A stretch of DNA of 64,000 bases from assembly GCA_012103255.1 (NCBI GenBank), contig WLXD01000002.1, positions 1 through 64,000 of the forward strand. Direction: 5' to 3'. Below are positions 25,852 to 30,874 of this stretch, in pieces (position 1 is the first letter of the stretch; every line of letters starts with the position of its first letter). Origin of the DNA: Acidobacteriota bacterium (GTDB lineage: Bacteria > Acidobacteriota > UBA890 > WLXD01). The position numbers and the translations under genes are program-made. The notes beneath the pieces are model-generated. The model was not told the DNA's origin and did no database searches. It was given only the letters and a program-made list of their open reading frames with translations.

Positions 25852-25865
25852 GGGTGTAAACACCC
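25852..25865. promoter_or_regulatory. Palindromic operator candidate
   Basis: GGGTGT-AA-ACACCC is a perfect 14-bp inverted repeat about 90 bp upstream of the HTH-permease start and 57 bp after the serine-hydrolase stop. Its size and symmetry suit a dimeric XRE-type repressor, and the downstream gene begins with such a domain. Autoregulation is an inference. Confidence 0.35.
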
Positions 25866-25954
25866 TGTGAGCGCTTTGAAGGCCCCTGGGGGTAACCTCG
25901 GGAGGGCCAACGGCGTATCACTGGCGGTACGCACAACCGTCATCGGAGCGAATC

Positions 25955-28672
25955 GTGCCGACTCGATACCGACTCAAGAATCATCAACTTGCGGCAGAGC
26001 TGGCCAAGAAGCGGCACAGCCAGAACCGCTGGGCTGATGTTCTGGGTGTCGGTCGGGCGCATCTTTCGCTTCTGGTGAACGGTAAGCGACCCTATCCGTC
26101 CGAGGACACCCGCCGGAAGCTGCTCCAGGGACTCGACGTCCCCTTCTCGACTCTGTTCGAGATCGAGGAGGTGCCGATGCCCGGCAGCGACCGACCGCGT
26201 CACCACGCGTGGATGCCTCGGCCTGAACCGCCAGGAATCGTCATGCCACTCGAAAGCACCTTCCAGGAAATCCGCTACGCCCTGCGCACGATCGTGCTGC
26301 GGCCGATGTTCAGTCTCATCGTCGTCGTCATGCTCGCACTTGGAATCGCAGGCAACAGTGCGATGTTCTCCTGGGTGGACGGCATGCTGCTCCGTCCGCT
26401 ACGGGTCGAGCAGCCCGAACAGTGGGCGCAGCTCGGAATCGAAACCGCGAGCGGCTTCGTCTCGAGCTACTCATATCCAACGTTCATCGATCACCTGGCG
26501 ATGAACGAGGTCTTTGAGGAGATGTTCGCCATTCGGGTGTTCCCTGTGAGCTTCTCGAGTGGTGGAGAGAACACGAGGGCCAACGCCGCCATGGTGAACG
26601 GCGCCTATTTCCGCGCGCTTGGGGGCACCGCCGCGATCGGAAGGACGTTCAACGAGGCAGAGGATCGGGTCCCGGGAAACGAAACCGTCGCGGTTCTCGG
26701 GTACGGGTTCTGGCAGCGCCACTTTGCCGGTGATCCGGAAGTTGTCGGCACGGAGGTGTTGATCAACTCCCGCGCCTTCACAGTGATCGGCGTGATGCCC
26801 GAGAACTTCGGTTTTGCCCGAGTCGAGGTCGCCGCGGACATGTGGACTCCTCTTGTGATGCAGGAGGTCTTGCGTCCGGGGTCCGGCACACTGGAGTGTC
26901 GCGGGTGTGGGTTCCTGCAGGTGTCTGCGCGGGTGAAGCCTGGACTGACGATCGCGCAGGCCGACACTCGAATGAACGACACCCATGCCCGTCTGATCGA
27001 GGAATACCCGGATCAACTGAACCAGACGACGGTATCCGTGCGACCGGCGACGCGGGCCTATCTTGGGCCCATAGGTGACGCCATCACGGTGGTGTTTGCG
27101 GTTCTCATGGGTGTGATCGGTTCAGTGCTGCTCATCGCGTGCATCAACGTGGCGAACCTGCTTCTGGCACGGGGCGCGGACCGTAGCGGCGAGATGGCCG
27201 TGAGGGTCGCTCTTGGCGCAAGCCGGAGCCGCATCGTGAAGCAGTTGCTCACCGAGAGCCTGATTCTCTCCGCTGCCGCCGCCGCCCTCGGGATCGTGCT
27301 GGCGGCCTGGATCAACAACCTCTTGCTTTCTTTCCAGCCTCCAACGGCCACGCCGGTTTCGATCACGGTAGCGCTCGATGGGCGTGTGCTTCTGTTTACG
27401 ACGGTCATCGCGGTTGTGACTGGACTCGTCTTCGGCATCGTGCCCGCGCTGCGCGCAGCAGGCACGAACGTAGTCAGCGCGATTCATGGTGCCGGCCGCG
27501 TCTCGGGCGGCAATCGCCTCCGCAGCACTCTCGTCGTCATCCAGATCGCGACTTCCGTCGCGCTCCTGATCGGCGCTGGCCTGTTCGTGCGAAGTCTGCA
27601 GAACGCGACGACGATCGATCCCGGCTTCGACAGCGATCGCATGCTCCTTGCGACCGTGGACCCAGGATTGCAGGGCTATTCGACCGAAGACACCAGGGCG
27701 TTCTACGAGGAGCTTCTGCAGCGTCTCCAGGCGAATCAGAGTATTCAGCGCGCCGCCATGGCCGAGATGATGCCTATGTCGCTTGGCAATCAGCAGTGGG
27801 GAGCCTCGATCGAGGGGTACGACGCTGCCGAGAACGAGCGCATGAACCTCGACTACAACTACGTCGAAACCGGGTATTTCGAGACCATGGGGATCGCCCT
27901 GTTGCGCGGTCGAGACTTCGACGAGAACGACGATCCGGCAGGCACCGGCGCGATCATCGTCAACGAGACGATGGCTCGACGCTACTGGCCTGAAGGCGAT
28001 GCACTCGGTGGTGTCGTGCGTAGCGGCGGAATGGAAAGGACGGTGATCGGAGTGGTTGCCGACGCGAAGTACTACACACTCGGCGAAACGCCCATGCCCT
28101 TCATGTACTTCCCGTTCGGCCAGTCGACGCAGTCGTCGATGACGCTGCACGTCAGGGCCGAGAGCGATGTCGCGGCCGTTACCGCCGCGGTGCGGGGCGA
28201 AGTGCAAAGCATGGATGCGGCCATGCCGATCTTTGACATTCGGTCGCTCGAGGCTCAGATGTCCGTCGCATTGCTCCCGGCCCGGATGACAGCGGGTCTG
28301 CTGGCGGTCTTCGGAGGGTTCGCCCTGTTGCTCGCCGCGGTGGGGCTCTATGGAGTGATGGCCTACGTTGTTGGGCAGAGGACTCGCGAGATTGGTATTC
28401 GCATGGCGCTCGGCGCGCGGCAGGAAGGGGTGCTTCAGATGGTGATCGGAAGCGCCGCACGGCTTCTGGTGGTCGGCGCCTCCCTCGGTCTGCTCGCGGG
28501 CGTCGGCCTCGGTCAGGTGGCGCAAGGGGTGTTGTACGGTGTCGGCGCACTGGATCCGGTCGCGTTGATCGGCGCTCTTGGGATCATCAGCGCTGCCGTG
28601 ATGCTGGCGGCCTGGCTCCCGGCCCGGCGAGCGGCGCGAGTGAATCCCGTCGAGGCGCTTCGAGCAGACTGA
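25955..28672 (+). CDS. ADOP-type ABC permease with N-terminal XRE-like HTH
   Basis: A 905-residue protein from a GTG start preceded by GGAG at 6 bp. Residues about 12-62 look like an XRE-type helix-turn-helix (RWADVLGVGRAHLSLLVNGK). After a linker, M97 begins a typical orphan duplicated permease: first helix about 113-138 (LALGIAGNSAMFS), a MacB-type periplasmic domain, three helices about 380-500, then a second copy ending in an FtsX domain with three helices (770-900). No ATPase gene is adjacent. ATG 26243, with AGGA upstream, could start a free permease lacking the HTH. Fusion of a cytosolic DNA-binding domain to a MacB-like permease suggests a membrane-bound sensor or regulator, but this is inference. 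Confidence 0.82.
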   Translation: MPTRYRLKNHQLAAELAKKRHSQNRWADVLGVGRAHLSLLVNGKRPYPSEDTRRKLLQGLDVPFSTLFEIEEVPMPGSDRPRHHAWMPRPEPPGIVMPLESTFQEIRYALRTIVLRPMFSLIVVVMLALGIAGNSAMFSWVDGMLLRPLRVEQPEQWAQLGIETASGFVSSYSYPTFIDHLAMNEVFEEMFAIRVFPVSFSSGGENTRANAAMVNGAYFRALGGTAAIGRTFNEAEDRVPGNETVAVLGYGFWQRHFAGDPEVVGTEVLINSRAFTVIGVMPENFGFARVEVAADMWTPLVMQEVLRPGSGTLECRGCGFLQVSARVKPGLTIAQADTRMNDTHARLIEEYPDQLNQTTVSVRPATRAYLGPIGDAITVVFAVLMGVIGSVLLIACINVANLLLARGADRSGEMAVRVALGASRSRIVKQLLTESLILSAAAAALGIVLAAWINNLLLSFQPPTATPVSITVALDGRVLLFTTVIAVVTGLVFGIVPALRAAGTNVVSAIHGAGRVSGGNRLRSTLVVIQIATSVALLIGAGLFVRSLQNATTIDPGFDSDRMLLATVDPGLQGYSTEDTRAFYEELLQRLQANQSIQRAAMAEMMPMSLGNQQWGASIEGYDAAENERMNLDYNYVETGYFETMGIALLRGRDFDENDDPAGTGAIIVNETMARRYWPEGDALGGVVRSGGMERTVIGVVADAKYYTLGETPMPFMYFPFGQSTQSSMTLHVRAESDVAAVTAAVRGEVQSMDAAMPIFDIRSLEAQMSVALLPARMTAGLLAVFGGFALLLAAVGLYGVMAYVVGQRTREIGIRMALGARQEGVLQMVIGSAARLLVVGASLGLLAGVGLGQVAQGVLYGVGALDPVALIGALGIISAAVMLAAWLPARRAARVNPVEALRAD

Positions 28673-28796: not shown

Positions 28797-29510
28797 ATGT
28801 CTGAACAGCGCATTCTCGTTATCGATGACGACCACGAACTGTGCGAACTCGTTACCGAGTACGTCAGCGCGGAAGGTTTCGATATCGACACGGTGCACGA
28901 CGGGGAAACCGGTCTTAGCCAGGCGCTCGCAGGCGACTACGCGTTGGTTCTCCTGGACGTGATGCTTCCGGGTGCAAATGGTTTCGAGGTGCTGAGTCGG
29001 CTGCGGAAGACATCGAATCTTCCCGTGATCATGCTTACGGCTCGTGGCGACGATGTCGATCGGATCGTGGGACTTGAGATGGGTGCCGACGATTACCTCC
29101 CGAAGCCGTTCAATCCACGCGAACTCGTCGCGCGAGTCCGGGCGATTCTCCGGCGTGCGGACGCGCCAGCCGATGGCCGCGCACTCATCGAGGTGGGCGA
29201 TGTGCGACTCGATTCTGGTGCCCGCACGGTATCGGTCAACGACGATGAATTACGCGTCACCGCCGTCGAGTTCGAGGTTCTCGAGCGACTCCTGCGGGCA
29301 GCGGGAAGCATCGTGTCACGCGAGCAACTGACCCGCGACGTGCTCGACCGGGAATACTCCGCGCTCGACCGCGCCATCGACATGCATGTTTCGAACCTGC
29401 GAAAGAAGCTGGGAGCGGAATACGAGGGCGCAGAACGAATCAAGACGGTGCGCGGCGTCGGATATGTCTACACGTTGCCGCGCTCCGAATCGCCCGAGGA
29501 GTCCGCATGA
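28797..29510 (+). CDS. OmpR-family response regulator, CpxR-like
   Basis: A 237-residue regulator with a receiver domain (acidic D10-D12, phospho-acceptor D54 in LLDVMLPG, K103 in YLPKPFNPRELVARVRAILR) and a C-terminal winged-helix DNA-binding domain. The receiver segment PVIMLTARG...GADDYLPKPF is closest to CpxR among the regulators I know. It overlaps the histidine-kinase gene by 4 bp and has a CpxR-box-like site upstream. The likely role is control of envelope-stress genes. Confidence 0.9.
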   Translation: MSEQRILVIDDDHELCELVTEYVSAEGFDIDTVHDGETGLSQALAGDYALVLLDVMLPGANGFEVLSRLRKTSNLPVIMLTARGDDVDRIVGLEMGADDYLPKPFNPRELVARVRAILRRADAPADGRALIEVGDVRLDSGARTVSVNDDELRVTAVEFEVLERLLRAAGSIVSREQLTRDVLDREYSALDRAIDMHVSNLRKKLGAEYEGAERIKTVRGVGYVYTLPRSESPEESA

Positions 29511-30874
29511 ATCGACTCTTCTTCAAGATCTTTATCTCGTTCTGGTTGGCCATGGCTCTGGTCTGGTCTGCTGGTCTTCTGCGCACGCAGCTCAGCCGGG
29601 ACGACGAGCTACGCGCGCGGTTCGCCGCGCTGACCGATCAACGTCTGATCGTTGCCGGCCGCGTGGCGGTCGGCACACGAGGGGCGCCGGAGTTCTTCGA
29701 GGAGTTCAAGAGCGAGATCGAGCAGCAGGGTGCTCCGTATCCCTTGGTCTTCGATGACACCGGACTCGAAGTTACGGGCCGTGAGGCTCCGGCCGCGGCT
29801 CACGACCTCGCCATGACGGTTCTCGAAACCCGAGAGCCGGACCGCGTGTTTCTGCAGAGCGGCGGCGTCTGGGCGGGCCTCAGTTTCGAGCGAGAAGGCC
29901 TCGTTTACGCGGTGGTGCAGCAAATACCCAGTCGACTCGATTACCCGGAGCGGGCCTGGTACCCGAGAGCGGTCGAGTGGATCGCAATCCTGCTGTCGTC
30001 TGGGTTGGTCTGTTTCGCCCTGGCCCGGTATCTCGTGTCGCCGGTCACGACGCTGCGAGACGCGACGCGTTCGATCGCGCAAGGCGATCTGGGCGTTCGG
30101 GTCGGTGGTCAACTGGGTCGCCGGCGTGATGAGCTGTCCGAGCTCGGTGAGGACTTTGACTTCATGGCCGGGCGTCTCGAGGACCTCTTGGCTCACCAAC
30201 GCCAGCTCCTTAGTGACATCTCGCATGAACTTCGTTCGCCGCTGGCCCGCTTGAGCGTGGCTCTTGGCCTGGCTCGGCAGAAGTCTGGTGACACTGCGAC
30301 GGACTCGCTGGAGCGGATCGAGCAGGAGTCCGAGCGGCTGAACTCCATGATTGGGGAACTTCTGACCCTGACGCGACTGGACGATCCTCGAAATCTGCCG
30401 GAACGGCACATGGTCGATCTTGCTGCGATCGTGAAGGAAATCGCCGAAAACGGCGACTACGAAGCGCGCGCCCGCGGTCGTGGCGTCGAGATTGTGGCGA
30501 CTATCGATGCCACCATCGATGGGTATGGGGACCTGCTGACACGCGCCGTGGACAACGTCGTCCGGAACGCCATCCGATACACGCCAGAAAACACCGCGGT
30601 TTCGGTTTCCATGCGGGGTGCTGCCGGCCGAGGCGTGGTGATTACGGTGCACGACAAGGGACCGGGAGTGCCCGAAGAAGCACTCGGCTCCCTGTTCGAG
30701 CCCTTCTACCGTGTCGGCGATGCCAGAGACCGCGCCTCCGGCGGGACGGGGCTAGGCCTATCGATTAGCGAGCGGGCGGTTCGGGCCCACGGCGGCAGCA
30801 TCGTTGCACGGAACGCCGAACCAACCGGTCTTGAGATCGAGATCCGACTACCCGGTGCGGTGACGGGCGACTGA
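29507..30874 (+). CDS. Sensor histidine kinase, CpxA-like
   Basis: Inner-membrane sensor of 455 residues: helix 1 (about 7-25), a periplasmic domain of about 130 residues, helix 2 (about 158-180), HAMP, then a dimerisation domain with phospho-acceptor H240 in SDISHELRSPLARL. The ATPase domain has the N box (DNVVRNAIRY), G1 (HDKGPGVPEE) and G2 (GGTGLGLSI). The residues around the His match CpxA (SDISHELRTPL). It is translationally coupled to the response regulator. The sensed signal is not evident, since the periplasmic domain is divergent. Confidence 0.9.
   Translation: MNRLFFKIFISFWLAMALVWSAGLLRTQLSRDDELRARFAALTDQRLIVAGRVAVGTRGAPEFFEEFKSEIEQQGAPYPLVFDDTGLEVTGREAPAAAHDLAMTVLETREPDRVFLQSGGVWAGLSFEREGLVYAVVQQIPSRLDYPERAWYPRAVEWIAILLSSGLVCFALARYLVSPVTTLRDATRSIAQGDLGVRVGGQLGRRRDELSELGEDFDFMAGRLEDLLAHQRQLLSDISHELRSPLARLSVALGLARQKSGDTATDSLERIEQESERLNSMIGELLTLTRLDDPRNLPERHMVDLAAIVKEIAENGDYEARARGRGVEIVATIDATIDGYGDLLTRAVDNVVRNAIRYTPENTAVSVSMRGAAGRGVVITVHDKGPGVPEEALGSLFEPFYRVGDARDRASGGTGLGLSISERAVRAHGGSIVARNAEPTGLEIEIRLPGAVTGD

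Follow-up and report, generated by a model that had tools for sequence, protein, structure and literature searches.

Is a DNA-binding domain at the N-terminus of a permease a genuine part of the protein, and, if so, what could such a protein regulate? The question is raised by an open frame at positions 25955–28672 (forward strand) of the window, that is, the whole analyzed stretch of 64,000 nucleotides from an Acidobacteriota bacterium. The frame is intact and encodes 905 amino acids plus stop; as originally predicted, it joins an XRE-like helix-turn-helix (HTH) domain to a whole duplicated permease, here a full ADOP. We refer to such fusions as HTH-ADOPs.

Architecture of the fusion protein

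The full-length product starts at a GTG codon preceded by the Shine–Dalgarno (SD) sequence GGAG at 25945–25948 (together 25945–25957). Residues 103–905 align with positions 2–803 of the ADOP profile TIGR03434 at 856.8 bits, against a curated cut-off of 622.3. By profiles and structural modeling, the permease core (26243–28669) is built from MacB-type periplasmic domains and FtsX-type membrane units, two of each. It is separated from the HTH domain (residues 1–73, 25955–26173) by a weakly conserved linker, predicted to be disordered (residues 74–96, 26174–26242).

In the domain search, the N-terminal 96 amino acids match HTH_3 (E = 9e-4) and HTH_31 (E = 1e-3) below gathering (19.7 vs. a gathering score of 23); the gathering score of HTH_31 (27) is passed by the homologous N-termini of loci L110 and L111 (28.2 and 28.0). 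The AlphaFold2 model of this segment (pLDDT 95) has a strand, five helices, and a strand, i.e., the predicted five-helix XRE fold, and the best Foldseek matches in PDB are C.BclI, SinR, and CylR2 (TM about 0.7–0.75, best E = 2.6e-3). The XRE assignment is supported by the model, the fold matches, and L110/L111, and the segment also stands out in dN/dS (see below). In the model of the full protein, the HTH (4–71) is followed by a disordered linker (about 74–99) and by long helices from residue 117 on, eight in total, with two periplasmic domains; the predicted DNA-binding domain and the membrane helices belong to one chain. The best folds for the full model are YbbP and MacB, with BceAB also among the Foldseek matches. 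By analogy with MacB, the N-terminus is probably cytoplasmic.

No ABC ATPase was recognized by eye among the translated open reading frames at 22–34 kb, the family scan found no perm_prefix_1/2 domain at the N-terminus, and the PadR profile has no match in the window region. A response regulator and a sensor kinase are encoded on the same strand at 28797–30874, ~125 bp 3' of the fusion gene. Beside ortholog L093, another ADOP takes their place; because the pair is not kept there, we left it out of the proposed system.

Conservation and distribution

The fusion is genuine, conserved, and recurrent. The HTH query retrieved 23 loci at E < 1e-12 (the window's own included) from 60 related genomes, plus one further match, weak and ordinary; all 23 copies examined in detail read in-frame into an ADOP permease. 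Orthologs from two other genomes, L092 and L093, have 905 residues, as in the window protein, without indels. Given these same-length orthologs and some 20 paralogous fusions in the homolog survey, the fusion is not due to chance. A survey of 396 Acidobacteriota genomes yielded 26 clear copies (E < 1e-29) in six genomes from only two families, separated by a wide gap from ordinary XRE proteins, the best of which reaches E = 7e-10; when all candidates in the second family were rescored, 15 and 3 copies were obtained. All 26 clear members (phylum survey and follow-up) stand at the head of long frames. A seventh genome, LB_ACB_1, carries the fusion at locus L174. The named records with the HTH, from three loci retrieved with a 6-row alignment, are Acidobacteria/Acidobacteriota MAGs, and MAGs make up most of the genomes used.

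The HTH is also the most constrained part of the protein, with dN/dS against the window gene of 0.055–0.065 vs. 0.08–0.29 for other segments; the most variable folded part is the periplasmic domains. Identity between orthologs is 90% for the HTH vs. 67% for the permease, and between paralogs 45–61% vs. about 23–34%. The possibility that all homologs start at the position of M97 and that the segment upstream of it is not conserved was rejected: homologs do not begin there, and this segment is the best conserved one.

A tandem repeat upstream of the fusion genes

The window gene and its orthologs are preceded by otherwise diverged DNA in which the block TGTAAACACCCTGTGA is kept. Comparison with relatives delineates a tandem operator-like repeat at 25854–25878 of the forward strand, with TAAACAC (25857–25863), TGAGCGC (25868–25874), and TTTG (25875–25878). 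The palindrome expected at 25852 does exist as the inverted repeat GGGTGTAAACACCC (25852–25865); it is, however, a part of the tandem direct repeat, which replaced the single palindromic operator as our candidate. Paralogous upstream regions share the repeat, approximately (T/C)GAACAC-nn(n)-(T/C)GAACAC-TTT, with the repeats 10–11 bp apart.

The Gibbs search in 17 non-redundant upstream regions gave a score of 241, compared to 166–176 in four shuffles. With a leave-one-out PWM, 21 of the 25 HTH upstream regions scored above the best of 97 other ADOPs (p = 4e-13), among them L174 and L146, never used in training. An IUPAC pattern for the operator proved too rigid, and we used a sequence-only profile instead. 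In six whole genomes, this profile has 25 matches, 21 of them upstream of HTH-ADOP genes, including two in G171 outside the training set; the remaining four are weak (E = 0.42–0.92) and lie inside coding sequence. In ten genomes without the HTH, the same profile finds nothing better than E = 0.37, and the HTH family is found only in genomes that also have the site. In the sense of the whole-genome scan, the candidate site is private to HTH-ADOP genes. The window's own site taken alone is at noise level (E = 0.27), and it counts mainly through its conservation in orthologs. The site is absent at L100 (G015 C114), where the HTH is joined to a permease-like protein of divergent sequence whose gene directly follows another one, and the half-site spacing is wider (13 bp) in L004 and L109.

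A weak presumed promoter (25891–25921, forward strand), placed by paralog alignment, comprises the −35-like GGTAAC at 25891–25896 and the −10-like TATCAC at 25916–25921. A TTGAC-like box is observed 16 nt past the second half-site in about ten loci and 26 nt, i.e., one helical turn further, in two more; this spacing suggests class-I activation.

Permease phylogeny and PadR neighbors

ADOPs are abundant in this lineage: the genome of the window (G000, 4.8 Mb) has 67 above the cut-off, together with 150 PadR matches. The expectation that ADOPs often have a separate PadR gene holds in two genomes, the window's own and G015, where a same-strand PadR lies just upstream of 60 of the 120 other ADOPs vs. 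none of the 18 HTH fusions (Fisher p = 1.5e-5). The other half of these 120 likewise lack such a gene, which counts against the model proposed below. Two HTH fusions have a PadR nearby on the opposite strand.

Mapped on a phylogeny of 114 permease cores, the HTH requires 14 changes, at least 8 of which are forced by well-supported branches. By this reconstruction, the HTH is polyphyletic and was gained or swapped many times. In independent pairs that differ in PadR, the latter is always on the non-HTH side (5–6 of 8 pairs, median p = 0.03).

Other ADOPs have perm_prefix_1, perm_prefix_2, and prefix types without a family match. One recurrent prefix (L014, L066, L061, L074) has a P-R-(S/A/W)-F-R motif and, in two examples tested, no NCBIfam family match. 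In eight ADOPs of the window's genome, PadR lies shortly downstream instead of upstream. Two ADOP matches, L010 and L022, contain one in-frame stop codon each and may be pseudogenes.

A model of one-chain regulation

We consider it probable that the fusion protein, an ADOP with an XRE HTH, acts as a one-component, membrane-tethered regulator of its own gene and stands in for the prefix/PadR pair. The cytoplasmic HTH on an ADOP, a MacB-superfamily permease without its own ATPase, would make a one-piece membrane-anchored transcription regulator; its DNA target would be the tandem direct repeat, located about 60 bp before the presumed start of transcription. This repeat is probably a class-I-type activator site, and we infer activation rather than repression. 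The protein would regulate its own gene and, in multi-copy genomes, could also regulate sibling HTH-ADOP genes with similar sites; such cross-regulation is expected among G015 paralogs, since both their HTH domains and their sites are alike. The HTH would do the job ascribed in other ADOPs to the prefix domain and a separate PadR, while the periplasmic domains would probably carry the input, with the signal coming from the permease. Because the linker is predicted to be disordered, the mechanical coupling is not obvious. The ribosome-binding site at M97 would probably also yield an HTH-free permease core.

The idea of a membrane-tethered regulator, already part of the original prediction, is backed by strong circumstantial evidence, namely a conserved operator-like element found together with the HTH. 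Against the model, paralogous promoters may share ancestry. The fusion has a defined candidate binding site, which makes the role of ADOP as a sensor vs. a transporter directly testable; if true, permease lineages in which one-chain HTH and two-gene PadR regulation have been exchanged would offer a natural experiment on the rewiring of signaling.

A bolder scenario, in our opinion possible yet somewhat doubtful, is that a transporter-type permease now serves as receptor and transcription factor in one chain, with an operator of its own; that the promoter–operator–HTH module has been repeatedly transplanted onto different ADOPs, replacing PadR; and that the internal start provides two nested forms, a regulator and a plain permease, so that the response could depend on their ratio.

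A likely internal translation start

At the start of the permease core, the SD sequence AGGA (26233–26236) is followed after six bases by ATG (26243–26245, M97), a likely second start. Among HTH-ADOPs, 19 of 26 have an ATG no more than about 12 codons from the core start; among other prefixed ADOPs, 45 of 68 do. It lies mostly 4–5 codons before the core (64 sites). The SD energy peaks sharply 3–8 nt before this ATG and not elsewhere in the linker, resembling the start of ADOPs without a prefix. For the 64 sites it is −4.92, compared to −3.95 ± 0.25 under a synonymous-codon null, with none of 200 null means as low; amino acid usage alone, rejected as the source, explains only a part of the signal. 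The internal ATG with an SD at the core start is general in prefixed ADOPs (94 genes from G000, G015, and relatives). The sequence signature suggests nested products family-wide, predicting two products for many ADOP genes, and two nested products from the window gene are likely. A start at 26243 making both forms had been offered as an alternative to the membrane-tethered regulator; the SD-backed ATG is independently supported, as an additional feature and not as an alternative.

The two starts may also yield two functionally distinct proteins: the core from M97 would be the working permease, and the longer form with the HTH would act as a minor regulator or titrating partner. We hold this to be almost evenly balanced, and compatible with the membrane-tethered regulator. 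The fixed position of the ATG and the SD peak above the synonymous-codon null at 64 sites argue for it, as does retention of AGGA in ortholog L092. It rests, on the other hand, on a sequence signature that for the 19 HTH genes alone is matched by at least one of 200 null means lower than observed, and ortholog L093 has GGGGAA instead of AGGA; the site could also be a remnant of an ancestral start.

Alternative readings: feedback, docking, or artifact

An unlikely alternative to signaling by a membrane-tethered regulator is that the HTH acts on the repeats as simple feedback on the amount of permease, an ordinary transporter component that receives no signal, with tethering serving to limit or count copies. 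Such a role agrees with site matches almost solely before HTH-ADOP genes and with the predicted disorder of the linker; however, no ATPase that could power transport is seen by eye among the neighboring open reading frames, and the finding that different permeases acquired the HTH repeatedly, with PadR in their sister lineages, points to a wired-in input and not to dosage alone. Less probable still, and in our view improbable, is that the repeats are bound by another regulator while the HTH-like domain serves for protein–protein interaction or cytoplasmic docking: XRE folds can have other roles and the window HTH is below the Pfam cut-off, but the site goes with the HTH rather than with ADOPs of other types, and the HTH family occurs only in site-bearing genomes. 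Finally, an assembly or sequencing artifact, a frameshift, or chance read-through joining two genes, a concern as most relatives are MAGs, is practically untenable, having been refuted by conservation (same-length orthologs in two genomes, HTH dN/dS of 0.055, more than 20 fusions).

Comparison with known systems

The permease core is the same as in ADOPs (TIGR03434) with a PadR neighbor (compare TIGR03433, padR_acidobact), far above the curated cut-off; unlike those, the window protein has its regulatory HTH within the permease chain, the HTH is XRE and not PadR, and no same-strand PadR is adjacent. In BceAB–BceS, a MacB-superfamily permease serves as the sensor, as proposed for HTH-ADOP; BceAB, in contrast, includes its own ATPase and uses a histidine kinase, a separate protein, for signaling.

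In the HAAS–PadR dyad, N-terminal HAAS domains, found, e.g., on FtsX/MacB_PCD proteins, have been proposed to communicate with a separate PadR (PMC11237479). The prefix and PadR distribution among ADOPs described above agrees with this proposal. In both systems, a cytoplasmic module at the N-terminus of such a permease is proposed to couple it to transcription; the DNA-binding protein is separate there, whereas here one chain holds both. By analogy, with perm_prefix as a putative HAAS, HTH-ADOP would be the one-chain equivalent of HAAS–PadR. ToxR, CadC, TcpP, and BcrR (PMC10269533) similarly have a DNA-binding domain on a membrane protein, but none of them uses a full duplicated MacB-type permease as the sensor; the main text of the cited survey of transmembrane transcription regulators mentions neither MacB nor FtsX. 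In the open literature, with subscription journals mostly outside our coverage, we found no functional study of ADOPs, no paper on the HTH-ADOP fusion, and none that uses the term "permease prefix domain."

Kinase and PadR variants

In three loci (L005, L110, and L111), a Ser/Thr kinase domain with the AIK lysine, HCD-K-N, and DFG motifs is inserted between the HTH and the ADOP permease; L005 (C1 of the window's genome, about 1423108–1426491) has a stop, and its match to the ADOP profile extends to position 751 of 803. In L065:374-3433 (C9 of the same genome, 137.7–140.7 kb), a PadR domain above its gathering score is fused in-frame to perm_prefix_2 and ADOP; here too, by a different route, a DNA-binding domain is tethered directly to the permease.
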